Assembly (NCBI RefSeq): GCF_002198735.1
Contig: NZ_MWLO01000150.1
Location: forward strand, 1-64,000
Direction of reading: 5' to 3'
DNA: 64,000 nucleotides
DNA from: Ideonella sp. A 288
GTDB lineage: Bacteria > Pseudomonadota > Gammaproteobacteria > Burkholderiales > Burkholderiaceae_C
The notes under the pieces are model-generated. The model was not told the DNA's origin. It searched no databases and saw only the letters and a list, made by a program, of their open reading frames with translations. Position 1 is the stretch's first letter. Each line of letters opens with the position of its first letter. A program made the translations under genes and the position numbers. Of the stretch, positions 1 through 22,127 are shown piece after piece.

Positions 1-700
1 CCTCGGGCGCGATGCCGTGGGCGCGCGCCAGCGCGCGCTGCGGCACCGGCGGTCCGCCGGCGTCGCCGGGCTGCGGCCGGGCGGCCGTCGGATCGGCGCC
101 CTCCCCCAGCCACGCGGCCAGGCCCTGGCGCGAGAACACGCACCAGGCAGCCAGCGGCAGCAACGCCTGCAGCACCTCGCGCGGCGCCACCTCGCCGTCC
201 AGCACCGACACCACGCCCGCCGCCCGGGCCTGCCGCAGCGCCTGCGCGGCCGCCTCGGGCCAGCGCGGATCGACCAGCACGCCGGCACAGCCAGGCGGCA
301 GCAGGTCGGCCGGCACCGCAGCGCGCGCCAGCGCATCGCCGCGGAAGCTGTGCACCTGCCGCTCGCCGGCCGCATCCACCAGCACCGCCGACACGCCGGT
401 GCGCGCGGCGCCGACGCGGGCCACGCCACGACAGTCCAGGCCATCGTCGGCCAGTGCCTGCCGCAGCACGTCGCCGGCCACGTCGACACCCACGGCGCTG
501 ACCAGCCGCACCCGTGGCCCCGACGCCGGGTCGCGCAGGCGATGGGCCGCCCGCGCCGCGTTGGTGGCCAGCCCGCCAATGCGCATCACGTGTCCGCCAG
601 CGACCCCCTTGCCGCCGTCGGCGCTGAAGCGCTCGACCTGGAACACCTGGTCCAGCACCACCTGGCCGACAAACAGCAGCGTGGCGACAGCCTCGGTCAC
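1..700 (-). CDS. PfkB-family carbohydrate kinase, YihV-like branch (3' end outside window)
   Basis: Partial gene; the first 233 residues are in the window and the C-terminus (with the GAGD catalytic motif) lies beyond the left edge. It should phosphorylate a sugar or sugar-like alcohol with ATP in the cytoplasm. Seen: PfkB N-terminal glycine signature GGLATNAARAAHRL at about residues 42-55, the VGVDVAGD segment near 70, and a DPRW-...-VLDGE-...-VFSRQGLAAWLG stretch (about 144-199). By memory this last stretch matches the sulfofructose kinase YihV branch (DVRW...VLDGD...FSEPGLARLTG) better than ribokinase. Start chosen as GTG at 700, overlapping the upstream dehydrogenase stop (GTGA), which implies translational coupling. 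Substrate is inference; related kinases of the ketohexokinase-like group cannot be excluded. Confidence 0.8.
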   Translation of the reverse strand, partial: MTEAVATLLFVGQVVLDQVFQVERFSADGGKGVAGGHVMRIGGLATNAARAAHRLRDPASGPRVRLVSAVGVDVAGDVLRQALADDGLDCRGVARVGAARTGVSAVLVDAAGERQVHSFRGDALARAAVPADLLPPGCAGVLVDPRWPEAAAQALRQARAAGVVSVLDGEVAPREVLQALLPLAAWCVFSRQGLAAWLGEGADPTAARPQPGDAGGPPVPQRALARAHGIAPE

Positions 701-1674
701 TCGCCGCCCCGCATCAGCGGCTTGATGCGCTCGCCGGCCATGAAGCGGGCGAACTCCTGCGGCATCTCGGCCATGTCGAACACGTGGTCGACCAGCCGGG
801 CATAGCGCTCGCGGTGGCGGCGCAGCAGCGCGATGTTGGCCGCGTGGTCGCCCTTGGGAAAGTAGAACGAGCGCACCAGGAAGAAGTCCTTGCGGCGCAC
901 GGGCTTGCTCTCGTGCACCGTCCACGGCTCGTCGTTCTCGCCCACCCACAGCATCACGCCCTGCGCAGCCACCACCTCCAGCCCCTGGTCGCGCGCGGCC
1001 AGGTTGCCGCTGGATTCCAGCACCAGGTCGAAGCGCCGGCTGCGGTCACCCACCGGGTGCAGGCGCGCGCCCATCGATTCGGCCAGGGCGCCCCGGTGCG
1101 GCCGCGGGTCGGCCACGTGCACATCCGTGGCCCCCATGTCCTGCAGCGCGATCAGCCCTCCCAGGCCCACCGGGCCGGCGCCGGTGACCAGCACCCGCAT
1201 CGACGCCAGATCGCGCAGCAGCGGCCGCACCAGGCGCAGCGCATGGGTGGCGGTGCCGATGGTGTCCAGCAGCAGCGGCGCCAGGTCGTCGGGGATGTCG
1301 TCGGGCACCGGCAGCAGGCACTGTTCGGGCACCGACAGCGCCTGGCCGTAGCCGCCGTCGCGGTTCCAGCCGACCAGCGTGGATTCGCGCTCGCAGGTGT
1401 GCGTCTGCCCCGCCAGGCATTGCGCGCAGACGCCGCAGTGCACGGGGATGTAGACCACGCTGCGCTGGCCGTGCAGGTCATGGCCGGGCTGGTCGACGGT
1501 GCCGAAGATCTCGTGGCCCGGCGTGTGCGCCGCGCCCTTGTGCCACAGCTTGCCGTCGCTGCCGCACAGCGCGGTGCGGCGCACGCGCAGCAGCACCTCG
1601 CCGGCCGGCACCTCGGGCCAGGGGCGGTCGATCAGTTCGACCTGCCGGGCACCGGCAAAGCGGATGGCGCGCAT
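697..1674 (-). CDS. Zinc-type medium-chain alcohol/polyol dehydrogenase
   Basis: 325-residue NAD(P)-dependent medium-chain dehydrogenase. Seen: GroES-like N-terminal domain with CGSD (about residues 36-39, catalytic zinc Cys) and GHE (zinc His/Glu); a structural-zinc-like cysteine cluster CGVCAQCLAGQTHTC; and a Rossmann glycine motif VTGAGPVGLGG near residue 165. Start set at ATG 1674 (MRAIRFAG), which begins the conserved GroES domain; an upstream in-frame extension has no domain content. It starts 7 bases after the next dehydrogenase upstream and overlaps the kinase downstream, so it is co-translated. Substrate unknown; a sugar alcohol, or a sulfonated polyol given the operon, is inference. 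Confidence 0.85.
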   Translation of the reverse strand: MRAIRFAGARQVELIDRPWPEVPAGEVLLRVRRTALCGSDGKLWHKGAAHTPGHEIFGTVDQPGHDLHGQRSVVYIPVHCGVCAQCLAGQTHTCERESTLVGWNRDGGYGQALSVPEQCLLPVPDDIPDDLAPLLLDTIGTATHALRLVRPLLRDLASMRVLVTGAGPVGLGGLIALQDMGATDVHVADPRPHRGALAESMGARLHPVGDRSRRFDLVLESSGNLAARDQGLEVVAAQGVMLWVGENDEPWTVHESKPVRRKDFFLVRSFYFPKGDHAANIALLRRHRERYARLVDHVFDMAEMPQEFARFMAGERIKPLMRGGE

Positions 1675-1681
1675 CAGCGGC

Positions 1682-2689
1682 TCAGTGCTGCGGCTCGAGC
1701 ACCAGCTTGGCCGCGGCGACGCGGCCGTGGTGCAAGTCGTCGAAGGCGCGGGCGCCATCGGCCAGCGGCCGGCGCTCGACCCACGACAGGTCGCCGAACA
1801 CGCCGCGGGCCAGCGCGGCCACGGTGGCGCGCAGGTCGGCGGTGCTGTAGGTGTAGGTGCCCAGCAGCGTGATCTCGGCCAGCGTGAGCTTGCGCATGTC
1901 GATCTCGCTGGCCCAGTCCTGCAGCCCGATGTGCATGACCACGCCGCCGGGCTTGACCGCCGCCAGCGCCGACTGGCGCGTCCTGGCGCTGCCCACGGCG
2001 TCGATCACGTAGTCGAAGGCGTTCTCCTCCGGGCCCTGTGCGATCGGGTCGAAGGTGGCGCAGCGCGCGTGCTGCTCGATCGACGTGCGGCGCAGCGGGT
2101 TGACCTCGGCCACCGCCAGCCGGTCGACGCCGTAGTGACGCAACAGCAGCGCGGCCAGCATGCCGATGGCGCCACCACCCAGCACCAGCACGCGGCATTC
2201 GGGCAGCGGGCGCACCAGACTCTTCATCGACAGGTTGATCGCGTGCAGCGCGGTGGCGCCGGGTTCGGTGAGCGCCGCCTCCACCGAGCCCAGGCTGTCG
2301 GGCAGCGGGATCAGGCAGCCGGCGGGAATGCCCATCTGCTGCGCGAAGGCGCCGGGCCGCGTCATGCCAACCATGGTGCGGTGGGCGCACAGGTTGTCGC
2401 GGCCCTGCACGCAGTACTCGCAGTGGCCGCAGACGATCAGCGGGTTGCCGGTGGCACGCATGCCTTCCTGCCACAGCGGGTGCATGCTGGAAACCACGGT
2501 GCCGGAGAACTCGTGGCCCAGCACCAGGCCGGGCTTGCGGCGCGGGTCGTGGCCATGGTAGGCGTGCATGTCCGAGCCGCAGATGCCCACGGCGTCGATG
2601 CGCAGCACCACGTCGCCGGGCACCATCGTGGGCTCGGGCCGGTCGAGCAACTGCACTTCGTTGGGTTGGGTGTAGACGAGGGCTTTCAT
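1682..2689 (-). CDS. Zinc-type medium-chain dehydrogenase, candidate HpsP-like DHPS 2-dehydrogenase
   Basis: 335 residues. Seen: GroES domain with CGSDMHAYHG (catalytic Cys about residue 37), GHEFSG (zinc His/Glu), the four-cysteine structural zinc loop CGHCEYCVQGRDNLC, and the nucleotide-binding motif VLGGGAIGMLAA about residue 170. Typical length and complete. Established knowledge: DHPS degradation operons encode HpsN with two further dehydrogenases, HpsO and HpsP, which interconvert DHPS enantiomers through the 2-keto intermediate. This gene lies in the same operon as an HpsN homologue and an SDR, so HpsP is the best guess, but sorbitol/threonine-type dehydrogenases have the same architecture. 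The role is inference from neighbourhood. Confidence 0.85.
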   Translation of the reverse strand: MKALVYTQPNEVQLLDRPEPTMVPGDVVLRIDAVGICGSDMHAYHGHDPRRKPGLVLGHEFSGTVVSSMHPLWQEGMRATGNPLIVCGHCEYCVQGRDNLCAHRTMVGMTRPGAFAQQMGIPAGCLIPLPDSLGSVEAALTEPGATALHAINLSMKSLVRPLPECRVLVLGGGAIGMLAALLLRHYGVDRLAVAEVNPLRRTSIEQHARCATFDPIAQGPEENAFDYVIDAVGSARTRQSALAAVKPGGVVMHIGLQDWASEIDMRKLTLAEITLLGTYTYSTADLRATVAALARGVFGDLSWVERRPLADGARAFDDLHHGRVAAAKLVLEPQH

Positions 2690-2756
2690 GTCGGGTGGAC
2701 GCGCTTTTCAGGCGTCATGTAGGTTTCGCGGTTCATGGCGCGGCTCATGGCGCCGC

Positions 2757-3527
2757 TCACTGCGCCGTGTACCCGCCGTCGACCATCAGCGTCTGCCCGG
2801 TGATGTAGGCACTGGCCGGGCTGGCCAGGAAGACGGTGGCGCCGTGCAGGTCGTCCAGCCGGCCGTTACGACCGATGGCGGTGCGCCGGGCGTGCAGCTC
2901 GGCCAGCGCCGTGTCGGCGAACACCGGCGCGGTCAGGTCGGTGGGAAAGAAGCCCGGGCCGATGGCGTTGCAGGTGATGCCGCGGCCCGACCAGGCCTGC
3001 GCGATGGCGCGTGTGAGCTGCACCACCCCGCCCTTGCCGGCGCCATAGGGCGCGCCGTTGGCGAACGCGCGGGTGGACTGCAGCGACGCGATGTTGATGA
3101 TGCGCCCCCAGCCACGCTCGGCCATGCCCGGCGCCAGGGCCTGGGTCAGGAAGAAGGGCGCGCCCAGGTGCAGCGCGAGTTGCAGGTTCCAGCCCTCGGG
3201 CGTCACCTCGTCGAAGGGCTGGCGCAGGTTGACGCCGGCGGCGTTGACGAGGATGTCCACCGGCCCGGCCTGCGCCGCGATGGCCTGCCCGGCGGCGGGC
3301 AGCGCCTCGGTGCGTGACAGGTCGAGCGCCAGCGTGTCGCAGGCGATGCCCTCGGCGCGCAGGCGTTGCGCGGCGGCCCCGAGCTGGGCCTCGCGACGGG
3401 CCACCAGCAGCACGGCCGCGCCGGCGCGGCCCAGCGCGGTGGCCATGGCCTCGCCGATGCCGGCGTTGCCGCCGGTGACCACCGCGCGGCGGCCGGCGAG
3501 CGAGAACCAGTCGGTCAGGGCAGACAT
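2757..3527 (-). CDS. SDR-family oxidoreductase, candidate HpsO-like
   Basis: 256-residue classical short-chain dehydrogenase. Seen: TGGNAGIG cofactor motif at residues 18-25, NAAG near residue 94, catalytic Ser in NIAS, YGAGK (Tyr and Lys four apart), and the terminal DGGYTA motif. All catalytic residues are present. It lies 25 bases downstream of the HpsN-like gene and 67 bases upstream of the medium-chain dehydrogenase on the same strand, so co-transcription is likely. In known DHPS operons an SDR partner (HpsO) oxidises DHPS at C2 to allow racemisation; that assignment here is inference. Gluconate 5-dehydrogenase-like activity is the main alternative. Confidence 0.85.
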
Positions 3528-3552
3528 GCCGGCACCGTGTCGGCGACGCGCC

Positions 3553-6169
<2,617 letters not shown>

Positions 6170-6224
6170 CGTGTGCCTCCGCCCTGCAGGCGCATCGAAC
6201 CTGAATCGACACAGGACGGCATGC

Positions 6225-6743
6225 TCATTCCTCGAACATCGCCTTGCCGGCGTAGGGCGCGCGGCCGGCGCGCAGGTCTCGCCAGTCGCCGACGATGCGC
6301 TGGCTGCTGCGGAAGATGATCAGCGCGAAGGCGATGGGCACCGCCGCCTCGAACCAGGCCTTGTTGACGCGCAGCACCGGTGTCTGGCCCTCGAACTGCA
6401 GCAACTGGCGGATGGTGTGCAGGCTCCAGTACAGCGCGATGCAGGCGAACACGATGGTGGCCAGCTCGGCGACGATGAACACCACCGCCTTGCCGCGCGG
6501 GCCCATGCGCTGCAGCAGGATGTCGAAGCGGATGTGCGCGCGCTCGCGCACCGCGTAGGCCGCGCCGATCCAGCCGAGGTAGATGAAGGCGTAGCGTGCG
6601 GCCTCCTCGCCCCAGGCCGACGAGAAGTTGAAGACGAAGCGCCGCACCACCTCCTGCACGATGACGATGCAGCAGAAGGTGTAGAACACCAGCATCGCCC
6701 AGCGTTCGGCGTTCTCGTCAAGGGCGGAGAGGACGCGGCGCAT
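6225..6743 (-). CDS. TRAP transporter small permease (DctQ family), HpsL-like
   Basis: 172 residues with four predicted membrane helices and the DctQ-type EEAARYAFIYLGWIGAAYAVRE segment near residue 45. It is the four-helix partner of the large permease. Transcribed between the binding protein (51 bases upstream) and DctM (55 bases downstream). Ordinary length for the family; start at the ATG that begins the first conserved helix region. Confidence 0.92.
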   Translation of the reverse strand: MRRVLSALDENAERWAMLVFYTFCCIVIVQEVVRRFVFNFSSAWGEEAARYAFIYLGWIGAAYAVRERAHIRFDILLQRMGPRGKAVVFIVAELATIVFACIALYWSLHTIRQLLQFEGQTPVLRVNKAWFEAAVPIAFALIIFRSSQRIVGDWRDLRAGRAPYAGKAMFEE

Positions 6744-6793
6744 CAGTGGCAGGGTGGGCGTGGTGCGGGCAGGGCCGAAGGACTTGGCATCGT

Positions 6794-7948
6794 TCAGAGC
6801 TTGAAGTCAGGCACGGTGATCGGGCCCTTGGTGTTGGCGGCCTTCTTGAAGTTGTCGAACGCCGCCATCGAGCCGGCGAACTGCAGCTTGAACTCGTCGT
6901 ACTCCTTGCGCTGCTCGCCGCAGGTGTCCATCCACTGCTTCATCTCGCCGTCGGTGGGGTTGTAGAACTGGCAGCCGCCCTCGCGCAGGATGCGCATGCT
7001 CTCGGTGCGGGCCTTCTCGATCTGCGCGAAGGTCTCGATCTGCGTCTGCTCGTTGGCGGCGTCGAAGGCCTTGCGCAGGTCGTCGGGCAATTGCTGGTAC
7101 CACGCGGCATTGGCCGCGAACATCTGCGCATCGGGCACCGACCGGATGTACGAGATGTGGCCCAGCAGGTCGTGGAAGCCGAAGGTGGCCAGCGCGCTGA
7201 TGGCGGGATCGAGCCCGTCGGCCACACCCTGCTTGATGGCCGTGGCCGTCTCGCCCCAGGGCACCACGGTGGGGTTGGCGCCGGCCAGGCGGTAGAAGGT
7301 CTGCAGCAGCTTGGACGGCGGCACGCGCATCTTCATGCCCTGCATGTCGGACGGCGTCTTCACCAGCTTGAAGCCCTTGCGGGTGGCGATGGTGCGCGGG
7401 TCGACCGTGAAGTAGAACAGCGGCTTGTAGCCCTTGGCCATGACCTTGGGCGTGATCTCGTCGTTCCAGGCCTTGCTGGTGACGAGGTTGGCAAAGCGCT
7501 GGTTGTCGCCGCACCAGTAGGGGATGTTGATCAGGTCGACCACCGGCGTGTACGGCGAGAAGTTGGACAGCGACACCGCGCCGCCCTGCACCGTGCCGGC
7601 CTGGATCTTCTGCGCCAGCGCGGCGCCGATGCCCAGCTGGCCCGCGGGGTGCAGCTTGCAGTAGATCTGGCCCTTGGACTGCGCCTCGACGTTGTCCTTG
7701 TACTTGGCCTGCATGATCGGGTACTTCACGTAGTCCTCGATCTTGTATTCGGTGGCGAAGAGCATGGTCACCTTGGCGGCCTTCTGCTTCTTCTCTTCGT
7801 CGGCCGCGGTCTGGGCCATCGCCTGACCGTCGAACAGGTAGCCGCCGGCCAGGCCCAAGACGGCCGCGGTGAAGCCATGCCGGCGAACCGCCAGCAGGAA
7901 CTGGCGGCGTTGCGCGGACAGGTCGGTGGGGGTGTCGAGCGGGTTCAT
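6794..7948 (-). CDS. TRAP transporter solute-binding protein (DctP family), HpsK-like
   Basis: 384 residues. Periplasmic receptor that captures the substrate and passes it to DctQM. Seen: N-terminal RRQFLLAVRRHGF with a hydrophobic stretch ending AQA, compatible with Tat export; the DctP body includes GAALAQKIQAGTVQGG and a conserved arginine region (MKMRVPPS). Start chosen at ATG 7948 because an AAGGAGA ribosome-binding site lies just upstream; a longer in-frame start at 7975 lacks one. First structural transporter gene of the LacI-controlled operon. The ligand is not readable from sequence; the operon suggests a small sulfonated or polyol compound. Confidence 0.92.
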   Translation of the reverse strand: MNPLDTPTDLSAQRRQFLLAVRRHGFTAAVLGLAGGYLFDGQAMAQTAADEEKKQKAAKVTMLFATEYKIEDYVKYPIMQAKYKDNVEAQSKGQIYCKLHPAGQLGIGAALAQKIQAGTVQGGAVSLSNFSPYTPVVDLINIPYWCGDNQRFANLVTSKAWNDEITPKVMAKGYKPLFYFTVDPRTIATRKGFKLVKTPSDMQGMKMRVPPSKLLQTFYRLAGANPTVVPWGETATAIKQGVADGLDPAISALATFGFHDLLGHISYIRSVPDAQMFAANAAWYQQLPDDLRKAFDAANEQTQIETFAQIEKARTESMRILREGGCQFYNPTDGEMKQWMDTCGEQRKEYDEFKLQFAGSMAAFDNFKKAANTKGPITVPDFKL

Positions 7949-8014
7949 GCGGTCTCCTTGTGTAGGTCTTGGCACCGTGCCTGGCGCCGGCGGTTGGGGC
8001 AGGTGTGCGGTGGG

Positions 8015-8230
8015 TCAGGCGGGCGGCCGCACGCGCACGGCCTCGTCGGCGAACAGGCCCACCGCGAACGCGGTGACGCAGGCCAGCACCAGCAGGAACT
8101 CGCCGATGTCGCCCAGCGGCCCGCCGGTGACCCGCGCGGCCAGCTTGAGCGCGATCACGTAGACGGCATACACCACCGCCAGAGCGGCGGCCACGCGGTA
8201 GGCCCAGCGGCGGACGAGGGTGATGGGCAT
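8015..8230 (-). CDS. Small two-helix membrane protein, unknown function
   Basis: 71 residues with two hydrophobic stretches (about 10-33 and 42-61) separated by a short basic/glycine loop, so probably a small inner-membrane protein. It lies immediately downstream of the 18-base palindromic operator and 66 bases upstream of the TRAP binding-protein gene, so it would be the first gene of the operon. No family recognised. Small hydrophobic proteins are sometimes found beside TRAP loci, but nothing in this one shows a role. Confidence 0.6.
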   Translation of the reverse strand: MPITLVRRWAYRVAAALAVVYAVYVIALKLAARVTGGPLGDIGEFLLVLACVTAFAVGLFADEAVRVRPPA

Positions 8231-8246
8231 CGGGGATCGGCAGAGT

Positions 8247-8264
8247 TCTGTAAGCGCTTACAGA
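8247..8264. promoter_or_regulatory. Perfect 18-bp LacI-type operator
   Basis: TCTGTAAGCGCTTACAGA is a perfect palindrome with the central CG typical of LacI/GalR-family operators (TGTAAGCGCTTACA core). It lies 17 bases upstream of the first minus-strand gene and 127 bases upstream of the lacI-type gene, so it can control the transporter/dehydrogenase operon. The binding protein is inferred to be the adjacent regulator. Confidence 0.85.
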
Positions 8265-8373
8265 TGGTTCCCGACTGCCGCCGTGGTGTCAAGCCACGAA
8301 GCGAGGCAACCGGTCGGTGCTTTCCCTATGGGTGTTGGCCCACCCGGCCCGTGCACCGGCCACCTAGAATCGA

Positions 8374-8387
8374 TGTAAGCGATTTCT
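8374..8387. promoter_or_regulatory. Degenerate second LacI operator at the regulator start
   Basis: TGTAAGCGATTTCT shares the left half (TGTAAGCG) of the perfect operator at 8247-8264 but has a degenerate right half. It ends three bases before the regulator's ATG, a position suited to autorepression, possibly by looping with the upstream site. Only the half-site match is seen; function is inference. Confidence 0.5.
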
Positions 8388-8390
8388 GAA

Positions 8391-9431
8391 ATGGACCGAA
8401 GCACCGCCCCCACCGTCGAGGACGTGGCCCGCGCCGCGGGCGTGTCCACCGCCACCGTGTCGCGGGCGCTGAACCGCCCCGACGCCGTGCGCCCGGCCCT
8501 GCGCGACCGCGTGCTGGCGGCCGTGGCGCAACTGGGCTACGTGGCCCATGCCGGCGCGCGGGCGATGTCGCTGCGGCGCAGCGGCACGGTGGGCGTGGTC
8601 GTGCCGACCATCGACAACGCCATCTTCGCGCGCGGCCTGCAGGCCTTCCAGCAGCGCATGGCCCAGGCCGGCCACCTGGTGCTGCTGGCCTTCAGCGACT
8701 ACGACGCCGCGCAGGAAGAAGCCCAGGCCCAGGCGCTGCTGGCGCGCGGGGTGGATGCGCTGGCGCTCACCGGCATCAGCCAGCGCCCTGCCCTGACCGC
8801 GCGGCTGGCCCAGCGCGGCCTGCCCTGGGTGCATACCGGCAGCTTTCCCGCGCCGGCGGGCACCGCCTGCGTGGGGTTTCGCAACCGCGAGGCCATCGAG
8901 CGCGCGGTGCGCTACCTGCTGGACCTGGGCCACCGCCGCATCGCGATGCTGGCCGGCATCACCGCCGACAACGACCGCGCCGCCGAGCGCGTGGCCGGCG
9001 TGCGCCACGCCCTGGCCGCCGCCGGTCTGCGCCTGTCGCCCAAGGCCCTGGTGGAGGCGGCCTACACGCTGCAGGCCGCGCGCGAGGGCACGCGCACGCT
9101 GCTGTCGGCCGACCCCGCCCCCACCGCGCTGCTGTGCGGCAACGACGTGCTGGCCTGGGGGGCGCTGCTCGAGTGCCAGGCCCGCGGCGTGGCGGTGCCG
9201 CAGGCGCTGTCGATCGTCGGCTTCGACGACCTCGAGCTGTCGCGCCACTGGCAGCCCGCGCTGACCACCGTGCGCGTGCCCACCGAGCGCATGTGGACGC
9301 TGGCCGCCGACTACCTGCTGGCCCGGCTGGACGGCCGCCTCGCCGAGCCGCAGCAGCAGGAGATCGAGGTGGAACTGCTGGTGCGCGGATCCACCGCGCC
9401 GCCGCCCAGGACAGCCCGCCGCCGCGGCTGA
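8391..9431 (+). CDS. LacI-family transcriptional regulator of the TRAP/dehydrogenase operon
   Basis: 346 residues. Seen: N-terminal LacI helix-turn-helix TVEDVARAAGVSTATVSRALNRPD (residues 8-31), the hinge region, and a periplasmic-binding-protein-like ligand domain (GVVVPTIDNAIF; CGNDVLAWGALLECQARGVAVP; SIVGFDDLELS). Divergent from the operon at 1-8230 with both operator-like sites in between, so a local repressor responding to the imported compound or a metabolite is the natural reading. Complete and of normal length. LacI regulators are more typical of sugar-related than sulfonate regulons, which fits the PfkB kinase in the operon. Confidence 0.92.
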   Translation: MDRSTAPTVEDVARAAGVSTATVSRALNRPDAVRPALRDRVLAAVAQLGYVAHAGARAMSLRRSGTVGVVVPTIDNAIFARGLQAFQQRMAQAGHLVLLAFSDYDAAQEEAQAQALLARGVDALALTGISQRPALTARLAQRGLPWVHTGSFPAPAGTACVGFRNREAIERAVRYLLDLGHRRIAMLAGITADNDRAAERVAGVRHALAAAGLRLSPKALVEAAYTLQAAREGTRTLLSADPAPTALLCGNDVLAWGALLECQARGVAVPQALSIVGFDDLELSRHWQPALTTVRVPTERMWTLAADYLLARLDGRLAEPQQQEIEVELLVRGSTAPPPRTARRRG

Positions 9432-13810: not shown

Positions 13811-14557
13811 TCAGCCTGGCCCGCCGCCGCCAGGCGCCGCCTGCGCGTCCACCCACGCCCGATAACGCGCCGCATTGGCCTCGTTCGGCGGATACAGCCC
13901 GGGCAGCGCTTGTCCGGCGGACACCTGGTCCATGATCCAGCCCTCGAGCCGCTCCTGCTCGGCGGCGGCGGAGGTCACCTCGTCGACCAGCGCGGCCGGG
14001 ATGAGCACCGCGCCATCGTCGTCGACGACGACCACGTCGTTGGGGAACACGGCCACGCCGCCGCAGCCGATGGGCTCCTGCCAGCCGACGAAGGTCAGGC
14101 CCGCCACCGAGGCTGGGGCGGCCACGCCCTGGCTCCACACTGGCAGGCCGGTGGCGCGCACGCCGGCGCCGTCGCGCACCACGCCGTCGGTGACCAGCGC
14201 CGCCACGCCACGCTTGACCATGCGGGCGCACAGGATGTCGCCGAACACGCCGGCGTCGGTGACGCCCATCGCGCCGACCACCGCGATGCAGCCGGGCGGC
14301 ATGTCCTCGATGGCCGCGCGGGTGGAGATGGGCGAGCCCCACGAGGCCGGCGTGGCCAGGTCTTCGCGCGCCGGCACGAAGCGCAGCGTGAAGGCCCGAC
14401 CCACCAGGCGCGGTTGGCCCGCCTGCATCGGCCGAGCGCCGCGCATCCAGACGTTGCGCAGGCCTTTCTTCAGCAGCACCGTGGTCAGCGTGGCGGTGGT
14501 GATGGTGGACAGCACGGCCACCAGGCGGGGGTCGAGGGGCAGCGGTTCGGTGCGCAT
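13811..14557 (-). CDS. RraA-family aldolase/decarboxylase-like protein
   Basis: 248 residues. RraA-fold proteins include 4-hydroxy-4-methyl-2-oxoglutarate aldolases, which also decarboxylate oxaloacetate, and RNase E regulators. Seen: the family core GVFGDILCARMVKRGVAALVTDGVVRD (metal/substrate Arg and Asp), and VFPNDVVVVDDDGAVLIP near the C-terminus. It is the last gene of the suy/slc/com operon, 14 bases after comC, so a role on a 2-keto acid is likely. 3-Sulfopyruvate, the SlcC/ComC intermediate, is an analogue of oxaloacetate; acting on it is speculation. Confidence 0.85.
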   Translation of the reverse strand: MRTEPLPLDPRLVAVLSTITTATLTTVLLKKGLRNVWMRGARPMQAGQPRLVGRAFTLRFVPAREDLATPASWGSPISTRAAIEDMPPGCIAVVGAMGVTDAGVFGDILCARMVKRGVAALVTDGVVRDGAGVRATGLPVWSQGVAAPASVAGLTFVGWQEPIGCGGVAVFPNDVVVVDDDGAVLIPAALVDEVTSAAAEQERLEGWIMDQVSAGQALPGLYPPNEANAARYRAWVDAQAAPGGGGPG

Positions 14558-14571
14558 GGCGGTGCTCCTGG

Positions 14572-15579
14572 TCAGGACGCGGCCGCGCGCCAGGCGGCCA
14601 CCAGCGCGTCGGGCACGTCCAGGCCATTGGCCTCGGCGTGGCGGCGCAGTGCCTCGCGGCGGGCGCCGGGCAGGCGCACACCCTCGTCCTTCATCAGCTC
14701 GCCGATCAGCAGCTCGACGCGGTCGAGGTAGTGGTCGGCGCCGGCCAGCGCGCCCGGGTCGACCAGCACGAAGGCCTGGCCGATGCCGGGCCGGTTGCCC
14801 TCGTCGACGAAGAAGCTCGAGGCCTCGAAGCCGAAGCGTGCGCCGATGACGGCGGTGACCAGCAGTTCGACCACCAGCGCCAGCATCGCGCCCTTGGGCG
14901 AGGTGGCCGCGCCGATCGGCAGCATCGAGCCGGCCAGACCGGCCTGCGGATCGGTGGTGGGCCGGCCCTCGGCGTCGAGCGCCCAGCCTTCAGGGATCGG
15001 CTTTCCGGCCTTGGCGGCCACCATCAGCTTGCCGCGCGCCACTTCCGACAGGCTCAGGTCGATCATCAGCGGGTCGGCGCCGCGGCGCGGGAACACCGCC
15101 GCCACCGGGTTGGTGCCGAACACCGGGTGGCACCCGCCGGCCGCCGGCATGGCCGCCGGCGAATTGGCAAAGCCCAGGCCCACCAGGCCCGCTGCCGCGG
15201 CGGCGCGCAGGTGGTCCACCACCACGCCGCAGTGGTGGCTGCGCACCACGCCCGCAAAGGCCACGCCGTGCTCGCGCGCGGCGGCGATGGCCTCGCGCAC
15301 CGCCAGTTCGCAGGCCGGGAAGGCCAGGCCTTCGCCGGCATCGACCACCAGCGCACCGCCCTTGCGGCGCAGCACGCAGGGCGCTGCCGCGCCATCGACA
15401 CGGCCATTGCGCAGGTGCGTGGCGTACTGCGCCACGCGCGACAGGCCGTGCGAGCCCAGCCCCTGCGATTCGGCCAGCACCAGCGCGCTGGCGGTGGCCT
15501 CGGCCATCGCGGCGCTGGCGCCGGCCTGGCGCAGCGCGGCGGCCACCAGGCCGCGCACTTCATCGACGGGCAGGTTCAC
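14572..15579 (-). CDS. comC: ComC-type (R)-sulfolactate dehydrogenase (Ldh2/malate dehydrogenase family)
   Basis: 335 residues. ComC is an NAD(P)H-dependent 2-hydroxyacid dehydrogenase that, in sulfolactate degraders, reduces 3-sulfopyruvate to (R)-sulfolactate. Seen: Ldh2-family features AESQGLGSHGLSRV (37-50), VVRSHHCGVVVDHL (111-124, catalytic His region), GTNPVA (155-160), and FFVDEGNRPGIGQ. Start GTG 15579 is chosen because it overlaps the slcC stop as GTGA and begins the conserved N-terminal helix; the frame stays open for another 540 bases with only slcC-antiframe sequence. Named from operon context with slcC and suyAB; malate or ureidoglycolate dehydrogenase is the family alternative. 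Confidence 0.85.
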   Translation of the reverse strand: MNLPVDEVRGLVAAALRQAGASAAMAEATASALVLAESQGLGSHGLSRVAQYATHLRNGRVDGAAAPCVLRRKGGALVVDAGEGLAFPACELAVREAIAAAREHGVAFAGVVRSHHCGVVVDHLRAAAAAGLVGLGFANSPAAMPAAGGCHPVFGTNPVAAVFPRRGADPLMIDLSLSEVARGKLMVAAKAGKPIPEGWALDAEGRPTTDPQAGLAGSMLPIGAATSPKGAMLALVVELLVTAVIGARFGFEASSFFVDEGNRPGIGQAFVLVDPGALAGADHYLDRVELLIGELMKDEGVRLPGARREALRRHAEANGLDVPDALVAAWRAAAS

Positions 15580-16502
15580 GACAGGGCCTCCAGCACCTTG
15601 TCGGCGATCAGGAAGCTCACGCGCTCGTTCGATTCGGCGGACACGCCGGCGATGTGCGGCGTGAGCAGCAGGTTGGAGCAATTGGTGAAATGCGGCGACG
15701 CCACCAGCGGCTCGGCGCCGAAGACGTCGATCGCCGCGCCGCCGAGGTGGCCGCTGCGCAGCGCGGCCGCCAGCGCCGCCTCGTCGACGATGCCGCCGCG
15801 GGCGGTGTTGACCAGCACCGCGCCGTGCTTCATCGACGCGATGCGCGCGCCGTCGAGCAGGCCGCGGGTGGAATCGACCAGCGGCACGTGCAGGCTCACC
15901 ACGTCGGACATGGTGATCACTTCGTCCAGGCCCGCGCAGCGCACGCCGGACTGGGTGAATGCGGGATGGTCCTGGTCCAGCATGGCGTCGAAGGCGCACA
16001 CCTCCATGCCCACGCCGCGCGCCAGCCGCGCGGTGAGCTGACCGATGGACCCGAAACCGATCAGCCCCAGCGTCTTGCCGCCCACCTCGCGCCCGCTGGA
16101 CAAGGCATTGCGCGGCCACTGGCCGGCGGCCACCGCGGCGGTGGACGCATAGGCGCCGCGCAGCAGCAGCATGGCCGAGGCCACCACGTACTCGGCCACC
16201 GACAGCGCGTTGGCGCCGGTGGCCGGGATGACGGCCATGCCGCGCGATTCGCAGCCCGGCACGTCGATGTTGTCCAGGCCCACGCCCAGGCGGCCCACCA
16301 CCTTGCAGCGGCCCAGCGCGGCGAGCAGTTCGCCGCGCACCTGGGTGCGGTTGCGCACGACCACGGCGTCAGCAGCGGCGGCCTCGGCCATCAGCCGCGG
16401 TGCGTCGTCCACCAGCAACGGGTCGTACAGCACGTCGTGGCGGGCGCGCAGTTGAGCGACGGCGCGCTCGTCCATGAATTCGGTGATGACGATCCTGGCC
16501 AT
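15576..16502 (-). CDS. slcC: SlcC-type (S)-sulfolactate dehydrogenase (D-2-hydroxyacid dehydrogenase family)
   Basis: 308 residues. SlcC oxidises (S)-sulfolactate to 3-sulfopyruvate with NAD+. Seen: the GFGSIG cofactor motif at 149-154, NTARGG with catalytic Arg235, Glu264 in FGAEPL, and His283 in TPHIAG, forming the usual Arg-Glu-His triad. The N-terminal MARIVITEFMDE and VVRNRTQVRGELL stretches match what I know of SlcC rather than serine-pathway SerA (no ACT domain). With ComC it forms the two-enzyme racemisation described for Chromohalobacter. It is 132 bases downstream of suyB and overlaps comC by four bases. Confidence 0.88.
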   Translation of the reverse strand: MARIVITEFMDERAVAQLRARHDVLYDPLLVDDAPRLMAEAAAADAVVVRNRTQVRGELLAALGRCKVVGRLGVGLDNIDVPGCESRGMAVIPATGANALSVAEYVVASAMLLLRGAYASTAAVAAGQWPRNALSSGREVGGKTLGLIGFGSIGQLTARLARGVGMEVCAFDAMLDQDHPAFTQSGVRCAGLDEVITMSDVVSLHVPLVDSTRGLLDGARIASMKHGAVLVNTARGGIVDEAALAAALRSGHLGGAAIDVFGAEPLVASPHFTNCSNLLLTPHIAGVSAESNERVSFLIADKVLEALS

Positions 16503-16634
16503 GGTCGACGGTCTCCTTCAAAGTGGGGCAGTCTGCCACGGCAGCGCGGGCGTGGTGGCACCCGCGGGGTGGCCGACCCAGCGCCCGCCGCGCTGGCCGC
16601 ACGCGATGGCGGCCAGCCCGGTGGCGCGCCGCGG

Positions 16635-17810
16635 TCAGGCGCTTTCGTACAGGCGCGTCAGCACGAACTCGCGGTGGCCCAGCGCCTCGGCGGCGGTGAG
16701 CCGGCCGTTGGCGGTGCGCAGCATGCAGTCGAGCAGCTTGTCGCCGGCCTGGTCGAGCGTGATCTCGCGCTGCAGCAGCCCGGTCACGTCCACATCGACG
16801 TGCTCGCTCATCGTGCGCACCGTGCGCGGGTTGGCGCAGATCTTGATGACCGGCACGATCGGGTTGCCGATCACGTTGCCCTGCCCCGTGGGGAAGAAGT
16901 GCACCGCGTAGCCCGAGGCCGCGCACAGCGTCACCATCTCGGCCGCGGCGCTGGACGAATCCATGAACCACAGGCCCGGGTGGGTGGGGATCTCGGCCTT
17001 GTCGATGACGCCGTCCACCGTGCACTTCTTGCCGATCTTCTGGATGTTGCCCAGGGCCTTCTCCTCGATCGTGGTCAGCCCGCCGGCGATGTTGCCCTTG
17101 GTGGGCTGGCTGTCGGACAGGTCGCTCGTCTTGTGGCGGTTGATCACGCCCTGGTAGCGGTCGAACATGAACATGAACTGTTCGCGCACCTTGTCGTTGG
17201 CGCAGCGCGCGGCCACGATGTGCTCGCCGCCGGTCAGCTCGGTGGTCTCGCCGAAGCACAGGTAGCTGCCCAGCGCATGCAGCTTGTCGAAGGCGTCGCC
17301 CACCGAGGGGTTGGCGCCGCAGCCGCTGGTGGTGTCGCTCTCGCCGCACTTGGTGCTCACCCACAGCTCGTGGATCGGGCAGACCTCGCGCTGCTTCTCG
17401 CTGGCCCACTGCACGTACTCGCGCGCGGCCTTGCTGGCGCGCATGATGGTGTCGTGGTCGCCGTGCAGTTCGATGCCGAAGCCGACCACGGGCTTGCCGG
17501 TGGCCTTGATGCCGTCGACGACCTTCTGCGTCCAGCCGTCCTCGATGCCGATGACCACCACCGCCGCGACGTTGGGGTTGCAGCCCGCGCCGATGAGGGT
17601 GCGGAAGTGCAGGTCGAGGTCGGCGCCGAACTGCAGGCGGCCGTAGGGGTGCGGGATCGCCATCACGCCCTTGATGTTGTGCGCCACGGCCTCGGCCGCG
17701 GCATTGGACAGGTCGTCCAGCGGCAGCACGATGACGTGGTTGCGCACGCCGACGCGGCCGTTCTCGCGGCGGTAGCCGAGGAAGGTGGTGTCCTTGCTGA
17801 TGATGCTCAT
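16635..17810 (-). CDS. suyB: (R)-Sulfolactate sulfo-lyase, large subunit
   Basis: 391 residues, UxaA/altronate-dehydratase large-domain family. SuyAB eliminates sulfite from (R)-sulfolactate to give pyruvate. Seen: [17 protein letters not shown] at residues 10-26, the cysteine-bearing [54 protein letters not shown], and [22 protein letters not shown]. These long segments are characteristic of SuyB and distinct from altronate dehydratase UxaA. It starts just after suyA with four bases between, as expected for subunits made together. Complete; start at ATG 17810. Confidence 0.93.
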
Positions 17811-17814
17811 GGTC

Positions 17815-18096
17815 TTACCACCTCTTGGTTTTGATGTTGTGGACGTGGGCGTGCTCGCCCGCCTTGATCGGCGCGACGACCTTGCCCATGTCGATGCCGT
17901 ACTTGATGACGGTGTCGCCGGTGGCCATGTCCTTCAGCGCCACCTTGTGGCCGATGGGGATGTCTTGCAAGGCCTGCACGGTGGTCGTGCGGTCCTCGTC
18001 CATGATCCAGCCGTTGAGCGTCATGCCGGCCTTCACGCCCTCGACGACGACGACGGCAACGGTGTCGCCCTTGTCGTGCAACACGAAATGATTCAT
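17815..18096 (-). CDS. suyA: (R)-Sulfolactate sulfo-lyase, small subunit (SAF domain)
   Basis: 93 residues, a stand-alone SAF domain corresponding to the N-terminal part of UxaA-type dehydratases. Partner of SuyB. Seen: [22 protein letters not shown] at the N-terminus, [22 protein letters not shown] in the middle and [14 protein letters not shown] at the end, all SuyA hallmarks. Start is ATG 18096 with an AGGAG ribosome-binding site eight bases upstream; a longer frame to 18162 lacks family sequence and covers the promoter. First gene of the operon, divergent from its GntR regulator across a large palindrome. Confidence 0.93.
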
Positions 18097-18158: not shown

Positions 18159-18188
18159 CCAAGTCATGTAGATGACTTGGTTGACGGG
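18151..18188. promoter_or_regulatory. 17-bp perfect inverted repeat, candidate SuyR operator
   Basis: CCCGTCAACCAAGTCAT - GTAG - ATGACTTGGTTGACGGG: two perfect 17-base arms around four bases, midway between divergent suyA and the GntR gene. The arms carry TTGACG in both directions. Its length and symmetry fit a dimeric or double-dimer GntR/HutC operator; being intergenic between divergent genes, it is unlikely to be a terminator. Confidence 0.85.
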
Positions 18189-18205
18189 GCCGGCCTGCCT
18201 ATACT
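18177..18205 (+). promoter_or_regulatory. Candidate promoter of the GntR regulator gene
   Basis: TTGGTT (18177-18182) and TATACT (18200-18205) are separated by 17 bases. The -35 lies in the right arm of the palindrome, implying autoregulation. A start of transcription about seven bases after the -10 would fall within two or three bases of ATG 18214, giving a near-leaderless mRNA. Confidence 0.5.
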
Positions 18206-18213
18206 GCGTCCCC

Positions 18214-18993
18214 ATGCCGGCCCCTCACCGTTCGCCCGCGTTCGCCGCCATCCCGTCGGCCGCCGCGGGGCTGCCGCTGTACCGCGTGGTCAAGCGCGAG
18301 CTGCTGCGCGCCATCGAATCCGGCGACTGCCCACCCGGGCAAACCCTGCCCAGCGAGGCCGAGCTGGCCGGCGCGATGGCCGTGTCGATCGGCACGCTGC
18401 GCCGCGCGGTGGACGAGCTGGTGGCCGAGCACCTGCTGGTGCGGCGGCAGGGCCTGGGCACCTTCGTGGCGATGCACGACGCCGACCGCTTCCTGTTCCA
18501 GTTCTTCCACGTCGAGCGCGCCGACGGCCGGCGCGAGGTGCCGACGGTGGACCTGGTGTCCTTCGAGCGCCTGCGTGCCGACGACGAGCCGGCCCAGGCG
18601 CTGGGCCTGAAGCCCGGCGCGCCGGTGCTGCAGATCGAGAACCGCCTGCGCCTGCAGGGCCAGGCCGTCGTCTACGACCGGCTGACGCTGCCGGCGCAGC
18701 TGTTCAAGGGCCTCACCGAGAAGCGCCTGGCCGAGCGCACCGGCACCATCTACCAGCTGTACCAGGCCGAGTACGGCATCACCGTGGTGCGCGCGGTGGA
18801 ACGCGCCCGCGCCATCGCCGCCGACCGCACCGCCGCCCGTGTGCTGGGCGTGGCCACCGGCGCGCCGGTGATGCAGGTGCGCCGCACCGCGCTCACCTTC
18901 GGCGAGCGGCCGGTGGAGTACCGCGTGTCGGTGATCGACACCGCGCGGCACGACTACGTGCACCAGCTGACGCGGCCCACCCGCGCGGTCTGA
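18214..18993 (+). CDS. suyR: GntR-family (HutC/UTRA) regulator of sulfolactate genes
   Basis: 259 residues. Seen: a winged helix LPLYRVVKRELLRAIESGDCPPGQTLPSEAEL through LRRAVDELVAEHLLVRRQGLGTFV (about residues 20-85) and a C-terminal UTRA ligand domain (GAPVLQIENRLRLQGQAVVYDRLTLP ... YQLYQAEYGITVVRAVERARA ... PVEYRVSVID). Divergent from suyA with the perfect palindrome between, so it probably represses suyAB-slcC-comC until sulfolactate or a related compound binds. Start ATG 18214; the frame is open from 18172 but that would run through the operator and -10 box. The suyR name is from context. Confidence 0.88.
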   Translation: MPAPHRSPAFAAIPSAAAGLPLYRVVKRELLRAIESGDCPPGQTLPSEAELAGAMAVSIGTLRRAVDELVAEHLLVRRQGLGTFVAMHDADRFLFQFFHVERADGRREVPTVDLVSFERLRADDEPAQALGLKPGAPVLQIENRLRLQGQAVVYDRLTLPAQLFKGLTEKRLAERTGTIYQLYQAEYGITVVRAVERARAIAADRTAARVLGVATGAPVMQVRRTALTFGERPVEYRVSVIDTARHDYVHQLTRPTRAV

Positions 18994-19081: not shown

Positions 19082-20572
19082 ATGTCGCGGATCGGGTGGC
19101 TCGTCGATCTGGGCCGGGTGGCCGGCTGGTGCCTGGCTCTGCTGGTGGCCTGCGCGCCATCGGCCCGGGCGGCGGAATGCCCGCAGATCACCAGCTGGAG
19201 CACCCAGGACACGGCCTTCTTCCCGGTGCAGCGGGTGACCCGCGCCGAGCGCAGCAACACGCCAGGTCCCAACTACTTCACGCTGCTGGGCGAGCAGGAG
19301 CGAACACTGCGCACCACCTACTTCGTGATGACGGCCGGGCCCACCCTGACCGTCGACCGGCGCTTCTGGAACTCGGTGGGCGTGAGCCTGTTCTCGTTCG
19401 CCAGCGAGGCCGACGCCAAGGCCATGTTCAGGCGGGAGTACACCTCGTTCTTCCCGCTCAACGACGCCCGCTGGGGCTACGACGTGCTGCACGCCGAGCC
19501 GCTGGGCTTGATCGCCTGGTACGACAAGACGCCCGGCGCCCAGGAGATCCAGGCGATACGGCTGCACCGGCACACCCTCATCAGCGTCGTGCTGCACAGT
19601 GCCACGGCCACCGAGACGCTGCAGCAGGGCCTCGACGAACTGGAAAAGCGCGTGGTCCGCGCGATCGAACTCGTCGAGGCCCGTTGCAGTGGCAGCAGCA
19701 ACATCTACGCGCCGACCATCGCCATCGAAGGCGAGTTCGGCATGCCGCACCAGGCGGGATTCCAGCGGCGCCTGGCCGCCGGCAAGCTCGTGATCGTCGC
19801 GACCAACCAGGGTGGGCGCGACGAGCTCGACTGGTCCACGTTCCGGCTGTTCGTGGCCGGCGTCGACAAGACCGGCCATGTGCTGCAGTTGATCAATCAC
19901 CTGGCGTCCCGCGGCCGCCTCAAGCACGGCGTGCCGGACGACCAGCCCAACACCGAGTCCTACGAACTGCAACTGGACCCGAGCCAGCTCACCGGCGACC
20001 ACAACTTCTTCAACATCGCCTTCAACGGCACGTGGCCGGTGCAGTTGCGCCTGTGCAACCGGTCGGGGTTGTGCGGCCAGACCGACTACCAGCTGTACTT
20101 CGGGCCCTTCCTGGTCATCGACCCGTACTCGTTCGAGGACCGGCGGTGCCTGGACGGCAGCGCCAACGGGCCGATCCTGTTCAAGGCCAGCTGGGGCAAC
20201 CACGGCCACAGCAGCGTCAGCAACTTCTATGTCGCGCTCAGCCCGTCGCTGGCCCCCTGGGAAAGCTGGGTCGACAACTTCTACACCTTGACGCTCGATC
20301 TGGTCGCGGTGGAGGGCAAGCTGCACTGGATGCACTCGTCCTACGGCGTGCAGCCGGTGTTCCACAAGGCGCCGGTGGACCTGCCGACGGGCACGCTGGT
20401 GAGCGGCTATGCCGTGAGCACCCCCTCGCTGGCCTGGAACGCCGGCAACCGGGTGCTGCTGGGGGCCGGATCGCACTCGCTGGTGTACGGCGCGGTGGAC
20501 CTGAGCCCGGGGCTCGGCGAGGGCGCGGCGTGGCTCGGGTCCATGGTGGTGCGGCTGTGCGGCCCGAAGTGA
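19082..20572 (+). CDS. Large exported protein, unknown function
   Basis: 496 residues. A signal peptide is clear (hydrophobic core WCLALLVACAPSARA|AE, cleavage near residue 31). The mature protein is aromatic-rich and soluble-looking, with several cysteines spaced as if disulfide-bonded (CNRSGLCG; RRCLDG). Start is ATG 19082 with GGAG six bases before it; an in-frame TTG at 19067 has no better support. No domain recognised. Stands alone between the suy regulator and a convergent lipoprotein gene. Confidence 0.75.
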   Translation: MSRIGWLVDLGRVAGWCLALLVACAPSARAAECPQITSWSTQDTAFFPVQRVTRAERSNTPGPNYFTLLGEQERTLRTTYFVMTAGPTLTVDRRFWNSVGVSLFSFASEADAKAMFRREYTSFFPLNDARWGYDVLHAEPLGLIAWYDKTPGAQEIQAIRLHRHTLISVVLHSATATETLQQGLDELEKRVVRAIELVEARCSGSSNIYAPTIAIEGEFGMPHQAGFQRRLAAGKLVIVATNQGGRDELDWSTFRLFVAGVDKTGHVLQLINHLASRGRLKHGVPDDQPNTESYELQLDPSQLTGDHNFFNIAFNGTWPVQLRLCNRSGLCGQTDYQLYFGPFLVIDPYSFEDRRCLDGSANGPILFKASWGNHGHSSVSNFYVALSPSLAPWESWVDNFYTLTLDLVAVEGKLHWMHSSYGVQPVFHKAPVDLPTGTLVSGYAVSTPSLAWNAGNRVLLGAGSHSLVYGAVDLSPGLGEGAAWLGSMVVRLCGPK

Positions 20573-20657
20573 CACGGCGCGGCCGCCAGTCGCCACCGTG
20601 CCCTGGTGATGGGCTCGAGCCGCCGCACGCCGCTGGCGCCGGCACGCCTGGGCGCGC

Positions 20658-22127
20658 TCAGTTCAGCACGACGCCCGTGGCCTTCACCGGCGTGCGCCGG
20701 TCCTGCGTCGTGCCGTCGCCCAGTTGACCGCCCTGGTTGGCGCCCCACCCCCACAGGCTGCCGTCGGCCAGGCGGATGGACACGTGCTGCCAGCCGGCTG
20801 CCACGGCCGTGGCGGCGGCGGGCAGGCTCAATGCGGTGGGCACCGGCAGATCGGCACCGCCGCCATGGCCGTTCCACTGGCTGCCGCCCCAGCTGAAGAC
20901 GCGGCCGTCGCGCGTGAGCGCCACCGACGCGTCGGCCAGCGCCGCGATGCCGACGACGCCGGTGAGGCCGGGCACCGCGGTGGGCACGGCCAGGCCCGAC
21001 CGGCCGATCTGGCCGTTCCATTCGAGCACCGCGCCGGCGCGGGTGATCGCCAGGCAGTGCGACAGCTTGCAGGCGATGCGCCGGATGTCGGACAGGCCGG
21101 GCACGACCGCGGCCGTGCCCGTGTGCGTCTGCAGCGTGGTGTCGGTGGTGAAGCTGACGCGGGCCGTCCAGGCCAGTTCGCGCACCGAGCCGTCGGACAG
21201 GATGGCGGCCGGCCGCTGCCGCGCGCCATCCACGCTCGTCTCCAGCGCGGTGAGCGACACCACGCCGGCCAGGCCATCCACCACGCGCGGCGTGCTCACC
21301 GCGCCGCGGGTGGACGTGGTGAGCACGCCGGGCCAGTGCCACACGCTGCCGTCGTCGCGCAGCGCCAGCGCGTAGGTCTGGGTGGCCAGCGCCTGCTGCA
21401 CGCCGGACAAACCCGCCATGGCGCGCGGCGCCGGCACGTTGCCGTTGCCTTCGCTGCCGCCGAGCAGCCCGCCCGAGTTGACGCCCCAGCCGTGGAGCTG
21501 GCCGTCGGTGCCCACGGCCAGCGCATACAGGCGCCCCAGGTCGATCGAACTCGCCTGCAGGCCGGCCACCACGCGGAAGTGGCTGCCCGCGAGCTCGGTG
21601 GTCGGCGTGCGGTCCCAGGGCAGCCCACTGGCGCCCGACACCACGCTGCCGTCGGCGCGGCGTGCCAGCGTGATGTCGTAGCCCGCGGCCAGCGGCAGCG
21701 CCGACGAGCACGACGCAGGATCGACCTTGCAGGCATCGGCCGCCACCTGGGCCGCATAGTCGCTGGCCATTCCGAACGAGGTGAGCACCTGGTTGGTGAA
21801 CGGCCCGAGGCCGTAGACCTCGCCGCCCGCCGTCAGGCCCAGGTAATTGCCATTGGCGTAGCCGCGGATGGTGTAGTCCACGCCCTCGAAGCGCAGTGGC
21901 TGGTTCTGTGGCCCCTTGGCAAACAGCGCGGGGTAGGTGTACTCCGCCCAGTCGAACAGCGCCGTCGCGTCCACGGCCGAGGTGGCCTGCGGCGCGATGG
22001 CATCGGCCAGGGCCCGCGCGGTGCGCGTGGGCTGCGCCGACGGCGCGGGATCACCACCGCCGCAAGCGGCAAGGGTGACGACGGCACAGGCTGCCAGGGC
22101 ATGGGGCGCGGTGCGGCGCAGGGGCAT
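20658..22127 (-). CDS. RCC1-like repeat lipoprotein
   Basis: 489 residues. A lipobox (TLAAC|GGGD) at about residues 17-21 predicts an outer-membrane or periplasmic lipoprotein. The middle and C-terminal parts carry RCC1/BLIP-II-type beta-propeller repeats: LYALAVGTDGQLHGWGVNSGGLLGG, TYALALRDDGSVWHWPG, and the final HVSIRLADGSLWGWGANQGGQLGDGTT. Start ATG 22127 has GGAG upstream; the open frame extends 97 residues further without signal sequence. Such propellers mediate binding; no partner is evident. Confidence 0.85.
   Translation of the reverse strand: MPLRRTAPHALAACAVVTLAACGGGDPAPSAQPTRTARALADAIAPQATSAVDATALFDWAEYTYPALFAKGPQNQPLRFEGVDYTIRGYANGNYLGLTAGGEVYGLGPFTNQVLTSFGMASDYAAQVAADACKVDPASCSSALPLAAGYDITLARRADGSVVSGASGLPWDRTPTTELAGSHFRVVAGLQASSIDLGRLYALAVGTDGQLHGWGVNSGGLLGGSEGNGNVPAPRAMAGLSGVQQALATQTYALALRDDGSVWHWPGVLTTSTRGAVSTPRVVDGLAGVVSLTALETSVDGARQRPAAILSDGSVRELAWTARVSFTTDTTLQTHTGTAAVVPGLSDIRRIACKLSHCLAITRAGAVLEWNGQIGRSGLAVPTAVPGLTGVVGIAALADASVALTRDGRVFSWGGSQWNGHGGGADLPVPTALSLPAAATAVAAGWQHVSIRLADGSLWGWGANQGGQLGDGTTQDRRTPVKATGVVLN

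Follow-up and report, generated by a model that had tools for sequence, protein, structure and literature searches.

A predicted DHPS operon of Ideonella sp. A 288 with a putative second entry route for a sulfonated six-carbon substrate

In the sulfur cycle, sulfosugars and 2,3-dihydroxypropane-1-sulfonate (DHPS) form large pools; sulfosugar cleavage and the mineralisation of DHPS and sulfolactate are usually drawn as a relay between two organisms. Here we analyzed a stretch of 64,000 nucleotides from Ideonella sp. A 288 (the window), position 1 of which is base 1 of contig C58 in a 6.98 Mb assembly of 164 contigs (G000). By gene content and orthology, positions 1-9431 are a genuine DHPS operon plus two extra genes, which encode a medium-chain dehydrogenase (MDR1) and a PfkB-family kinase that is cut by the contig end. 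We read this as a DHPS operon that is fed by a tripartite ATP-independent periplasmic (TRAP) importer and that probably admits a sulfonated six-carbon substrate by a second route (probability about 0.7 for the pathway as a whole). This one genome appears to combine the cleavage of a sulfohexulose with DHPS oxidation and desulfonation, and the operon itself would join both tiers of the relay.

The HpsN operon and its extra genes

The operon is a minus-strand row that runs from position 7975 down to 1. It starts with the genes for the TRAP solute-binding protein DctP (6794..7975), the small permease DctQ (6225..6743) and the large permease DctM (4895..6169), which are followed by hpsN (3553..4866), hpsO (2757..3527), hpsP (1682..2689), the MDR1 gene (697..1674) and the kinase gene. 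A LacI-family regulator gene, HpsR-like by position, lies divergently on the plus strand (8391..9431). The initial annotation had described an HpsN homologue with a short-chain dehydrogenase (SDR), a medium-chain dehydrogenase (MDR), a TRAP system and a LacI regulator, and this set is indeed present on the strand it gave. The best matches of the HpsN protein in the Protein Data Bank (PDB) are CpHpsN structures (8v35 and others, E 2.9e-237), compared to E 2.6e-68 for the best true histidinol dehydrogenase, which rules out that it is a plain histidinol dehydrogenase. It is 81% identical to HpsN of Cupriavidus pinatubonensis HN-2, and its closest relatives among the matches listed are from Burkholderiales, with metagenome-assembled genomes of Rubrivivax at the top. 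The key residues that PMC11382572 gives for CpHpsN (His126, Glu318, His319, Asp352 and Lys353) are retained one position later, as His127, Glu319, His320, Asp353 and Lys354. The zinc and sulfonate residues are thus kept, including the equivalent of His126, a residue that is absent in histidinol dehydrogenase. By orthology, this protein is predicted to be an NAD+-dependent DHPS-3-dehydrogenase that oxidises R-DHPS.

The adjoining DHPS dehydrogenases were assigned by sequence match and conserved place. HpsO (PF13561) has PDB entry 9pvq as its best match (E 9.6e-108), which is named SDR only, and matches the entry named HpsO, 8wwf, at E 4.3e-81. HpsP (PF08240/PF00107; the second MDR of the row, MDR2) matches 8wwd, in the PDB a zinc alcohol dehydrogenase, at E 1.1e-84. 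In a comparison set of 80 HpsN loci, some with short flanks and some on cut contigs, the SDR was found at 50% identity or more in 76 and MDR2 at 60% or more in 73, the remainder including cut contigs. One of these loci (L060) has a second HpsN-like protein, 62% identical to that of the window, at 19748-21043, about 8 kb from the first.

MDR1 is a zinc-type, threonine-dehydrogenase-like enzyme with an open frame and its metal-site cysteines in place. The GTG start of the kinase gene overlaps the MDR1 stop, and the window holds approximately the N-terminal two-thirds of the kinase (34..700, minus strand). When the whole genome was searched for PfkB, the window piece covered model positions 4-201 and the missing part (model positions 222-291) was placed at C131:8-217; the C-terminus with its GAGD motif is located at C131:2-271. 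A 362-residue class I aldolase of the LacD/YihT type follows directly. Window bases 1..33 are identical to positions 449-481 of C131, within the aldolase gene, and therefore the last 11 kinase residues as read from the window are an artefact of the contig end rather than kinase sequence. This copy points to an assembly error and, at the same time, speaks for C58 and C131 being neighbours, an arrangement in which we infer that the two kinase halves and the aldolase adjoin. The next genes on C131, read by eye, appear unrelated and include no isomerase or sulfoquinovosidase, so the row probably ends after the aldolase. Of the three enzymes that the initial annotation had proposed to look for beyond the left edge, only the aldolase was found there.

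Kinase, aldolase and desulfonation genes

By phylogeny, the kinase belongs to the YihV group. In a 38-row tree of PfkB proteins, 22 sequences (20 kinases of this cluster, YihV and one further row) form a single group with support 100/100, apart from RbsK, FruK, PsuK, FrlD and YdjH, and within it the window kinase clusters with those of loci L119, L120, L140 and L165 (88/94). Lys31 and Arg146, the positions singled out beforehand, align with Lys27 and Arg138 of YihV, which together with Asn109 we take to be its sulfonate-binding residues. In a 42-row alignment, Lys and Arg occupy these positions in 22/22 rows of the YihV group and in 0/20 other PfkB rows. The proposed resemblance to YihV is thus supported by the grouping and by these two positions, but the sulfofructose kinase role suggested with it probably does not hold (see below). 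None of the outcomes that had been named as contrary was seen, namely clustering of the kinase with ketohexokinase or adenosine-kinase-like enzymes, clustering of HpsN with polyol dehydrogenases that do not act on sulfonates, or plain polyol-catabolic genes to the left. We rejected a plain polyol operon since the tree places the kinase with YihV. From its group and residues, the kinase would phosphorylate a sulfohexulose on C1.

The solved structure nearest to the aldolase is 8TNF (E 3.2e-87), followed by LacD enzymes (1e-35 to 5e-30) and, more distantly, YihT (approximately 1e-15 to 1e-14). In Foldseek, 8TNF, which derives from Paracoccus onubensis strain Merri, bears the title sulfohexulose-1-phosphate aldolase; only the title of this top match was used, the query being a low-confidence model (pLDDT 52.6, no alignment) of the aldolase homologue at L095. 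The aldolase is full length, belongs to the expected family, and has a Lys that aligns with the one of YihT that presumably forms the Schiff base. It is therefore a candidate for the enzyme that splits sulfohexulose 1-phosphate into dihydroxyacetone phosphate (DHAP) and sulfolactaldehyde.

The window also encodes a desulfonation cluster on the minus strand, about 8 kb further right. It comprises suyA (17815..18096; assigned from its sequence and its place before suyB), suyB for the large subunit of sulfolactate sulfo-lyase (16635..17810; 85% identical to the C. pinatubonensis HN-2 protein), and genes for an SlcC-like D-2-hydroxyacid dehydrogenase (15576..16502; assigned by family and place) and a ComC-like dehydrogenase of the Ldh_2 family (14572..15579). 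Both subunits for mineralisation of sulfolactate by SuyAB are thus encoded. The SlcC/ComC pair is identified by family matches alone, and the ComC-like protein scores below the curated cut-off (NF040650, E 5e-53, 180.5 bits versus 500). A GntR/UTRA regulator gene lies divergently from suyA (18172..18993, plus strand), and an RraA-like protein is encoded after the ComC-like gene (13811-14557).

Based on these assignments, we propose that MDR1 oxidises a sulfonated hexitol, or an equivalent substrate, to a sulfohexulose, which the kinase would phosphorylate on C1 and the aldolase would cleave to DHAP and sulfolactaldehyde. Judging from the functions of the orthologues, HpsN would then oxidise sulfolactaldehyde, as well as directly entering DHPS, to sulfolactate, with HpsO and HpsP serving the DHPS enantiomers; the SlcC/ComC-like pair would set the sulfolactate enantiomer, and SuyAB would release sulfite and pyruvate. 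If flux runs in this direction, a single cell would both cleave the sulfosugar and desulfonate the product.

Related genomes contain several arrangements of the same genes. In L140, TRAP-HpsN-HpsO-HpsP-MDR1-kinase-aldolase-SuyA-SuyB-TauE run in one direction. Genome G823 has MDR1 as the last gene of its HpsN operon (L038), and on the same contig the kinase and aldolase close a suyAB-slcC-comC operon (L165, in the order suyAB-slcC-comC-kinase-aldolase); the order is suyAB-comC-kinase in L122 and suyAB-slcC-comC-tctC-kinase in L120. Genome G822 has a LacI-ABC-MDR-UgpC-kinase-aldolase cluster of the ATP-binding cassette (ABC) type; HpsN is some 6 kb away from it and SuyAB some 14 kb. Altogether, SuyB is present in the stretch or contig of 7/20 kinase loci (the window, L120, L122, L140, L150, L162/L163 and L165). 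The aldolase was found at E 1e-40 or better in 12 genomes other than our own, 4/398 in an order sample and 8/397 in a phylum sample. SuyB is enriched in these genomes, with 3/4 versus 68/394 at the order level (one-sided p 0.019) and 2/8 versus 12/389 at the phylum level (one-sided p 0.029), own genome excluded, in samples that are small and may share genomes. L121 and L123 are kinase-only stretches, and the match at L126 is a class II aldolase. On a Neorhizobium plasmid, an MDR-UgpC-kinase-aldolase cluster stands beside arylsulfatases and a sulfatase-modifying factor (L125, 13741-18573).

The substrate and alternative readings

Twelve distinct loci, the window among them, have MDR1 at 54-69% identity, and three others (L149, L150 and L151) have a sulfoquinovose (SQ) isomerase-like gene; in no stretch do the two co-occur. 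This mutual exclusion suggests that the operon may act on a sulfonated hexitol and not on SQ. MDR1, kinase and aldolase would then constitute an isomerase-free form of sulfoglycolysis, the sulfolactaldehyde of which is taken over by HpsN of the same operon, a proposal that we regard as tentative and somewhat less than even in its odds. If MDR1 indeed replaces the isomerase, sulfonated hexitols would be an overlooked nutrient; a literature search on sulfohexuloses and sulfohexitols returned PMC12421959 as the sole paper and no report of this nutrient class.

Several observations weigh against the pathway as we propose it. In the window kinase, Asn109 of YihV is replaced by Ser, although Lys and Arg are retained, and the C58-C131 join is an inferred one. 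In 11/20 kinase loci (L119, L121, L123, L124, L125, L141 and L144-L148), no SuyA, SuyB, SlcC, ComC, HpsN or isomerase family was recognised in the stretch, recognition being through families common to at least 3 of 24 stretches, so that singletons could be missed; an aldehyde dehydrogenase does stand in the rows of L124 and L148, and SuyB is encoded elsewhere in two of the genomes, G157 (L141) and G816 (L148). L125 adjoins arylsulfatases, the aldolase of L142 and L143 comes with no YihV-group kinase, and four of the eight aldolase matches in the phylum sample belong to one genus. Moreover, HpsN prefers R-configured substrates and D-sulfohexuloses give S-sulfolactaldehyde, so the link to sulfolactate may need HpsP, HpsO or another dehydrogenase. 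Furthermore, PMC12421959 states that the related kinase and aldolase of Paracoccus wurundjeri were not significantly increased on sulfofucose, and that its MDR was increased yet inactive on sulfolactaldehyde. Finally, the kinase occurs in 1/80 and MDR1, at 60% identity or more, in 2/80 HpsN loci, within flanks of which some are short. This rarity would fit an ordinary DHPS operon in which the extra genes are decayed passengers, an explanation that we consider very improbable because the MDR1 frame is uninterrupted and retains the metal-site cysteines, the aldolase has its full length and the YihT-aligned Lys, and L140 keeps the order.

A more serious alternative is that the kinase and aldolase serve sulfofructose made from SQ, as in the ordinary sulfoglycolytic Embden-Meyerhof-Parnas (sulfo-EMP) pathway, through a distant or unrecognised isomerase and with another role for MDR1. 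The same kinase and aldolase families adjoin the isomerase in L149-L151, where the sole NCBIfam match of the latter is SQ isomerase (E 2.5e-79, 4.3e-73 and 8.8e-75, below the curated cut-off). It is adjoined by a Gfo/Idh/MocA gene, the L149 copy of which has matches to sulfoquinovosidase structures of GH188 (E about 1e-116; the 8QC codes are confirmed as such in PMC10755693), with the L150 and L151 copies being 56% and 67% identical to it. L150 also has SuyAB, SlcC-like and ComC-like genes. L151 has an aldehyde dehydrogenase of the succinate-semialdehyde dehydrogenase type, an SlcC-like gene and both sulfopyruvate decarboxylase subunits (16071-17149; over cut-offs), and there sulfolactate may go by sulfoacetaldehyde rather than SuyAB. 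Our own genome likewise encodes a GH188 sulfoquinovosidase homologue (E 1.7e-95). However, this homologue lies on contig C5 (L183, 7330-13212) with homologues of SQ dehydrogenase (9gwu, E 8.3e-83), SMP-30 lactonase and aldose epimerase, most of a sulfoglycolytic Entner-Doudoroff (sulfo-ED) set, next to what we read as sugar ABC permeases. As given, this set of four homologues is incomplete; in the congener G010, sulfoquinovosidase and SDR homologues occur together with HpcH and IlvD enzymes, which is the sulfo-ED set. SQ is thus probably handled by the separate sulfo-ED-like cluster. Neither the SftI-type (NF048012) nor the YihS-type (PF07221) isomerase family, nor the GH31 sulfoquinovosidase family, had a match in our genome. 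Formation of sulfofructose from SQ within the operon was set aside for lack of an isomerase match, and an isomerase outside the two searched families may be present. Because no isomerase matched and SQ appears to have a cluster of its own, the kinase substrate is probably not isomerase-made sulfofructose, and together with the mutual exclusion of MDR1 and isomerase this makes the sulfo-EMP alternative unlikely. Slightly less likely still is that the substrate of MDR1, the kinase and the aldolase is a polyol or ketose without a sulfonate group and that their place in the operon is fortuitous. This would be in line with the ABC-type loci in whose stretch no sulfonate gene was recognised (L141, L144-L147), with the arylsulfatases beside L125, and with a similar trio in Escherichia coli, ydjH (kinase), ydjI (aldolase) and ydjJ (putative zinc dehydrogenase), the product names of which point to octuluronate. 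The YihV group with its residues, the 8TNF match and the repeated contact with SuyAB, SlcC/ComC and HpsN genes argue against it and for a sulfonated six-carbon substrate.

Comparison with known systems and operator site

The hpsRNOUP-suyAB system of C. pinatubonensis shares with the window the HpsN, HpsO and HpsP orthologues, the LacI-family gene beside hpsN (HN-2, L081) and SuyAB. It differs in its major facilitator superfamily importer HpsU in place of TRAP and in the lack of a match to MDR1, kinase or aldolase in the L081 stretch, and in the window SuyAB forms a separate cluster. The yih genes for sulfo-EMP in E. coli likewise pair a YihV-group kinase with a class I aldolase, to which ours is distantly related, but the window operon has no genes for an isomerase, a GH31 sulfoquinovosidase or a sulfolactaldehyde reductase, and its product is thought to be oxidised and desulfonated rather than exported. 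E. coli ydjH-ydjI-ydjJ follows, by product names, the same dehydrogenase-kinase-aldolase logic; YdjH falls outside the YihV group and no sulfonate is involved. Cluster 2 of P. wurundjeri (onubensis) Merri, the strain from which the 8TNF aldolase derives, shares with our genome a threonine-dehydrogenase-like MDR, a PF00294 kinase and a PF01791 aldolase together with SlcC, ComC and SuyAB. It differs in its ABC importer and its sulfofucose ED enzymes, and PMC12421959 does not contain the word HpsN. That paper (mBio 2025) lists the kinase, the aldolase and the threonine-dehydrogenase-like protein in the sulfonate cluster with their roles unassigned, and the scheme proposed here would offer a candidate role for each. 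The initial annotation had considered cleavage and mineralisation to be normally split between two organisms. Their joining in one organism is supported here at the level of gene content and is unusual, but not unprecedented, as it was reported for P. wurundjeri in 2025 (PMC12421959); literature searches found no paper with such joining inside an HpsN operon.

Between the regulator gene and the operon lies a perfect 18-bp palindrome, TCTGTAAGCGCTTACAGA (8247..8264), which is a predicted LacI-family operator. Its 14-bp core, TGTAAGCGCTTACA, occurs only once in the window. The core is absent from L140 and, at up to 2 mismatches, from the SQ cluster, from C131 (L118) and from the region before suyA, so no regulon common to these clusters is shown. 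With at most 1 mismatch it was found in 38/80 HpsN loci, and 57 of the 58 sites lie within 400 bases of a LacI match or before hpsN. Upstream of the SQ cluster (L183, 13076-19999), we also observed a very long open frame that is rich in repeats, which by eye resemble those of RTX proteins.

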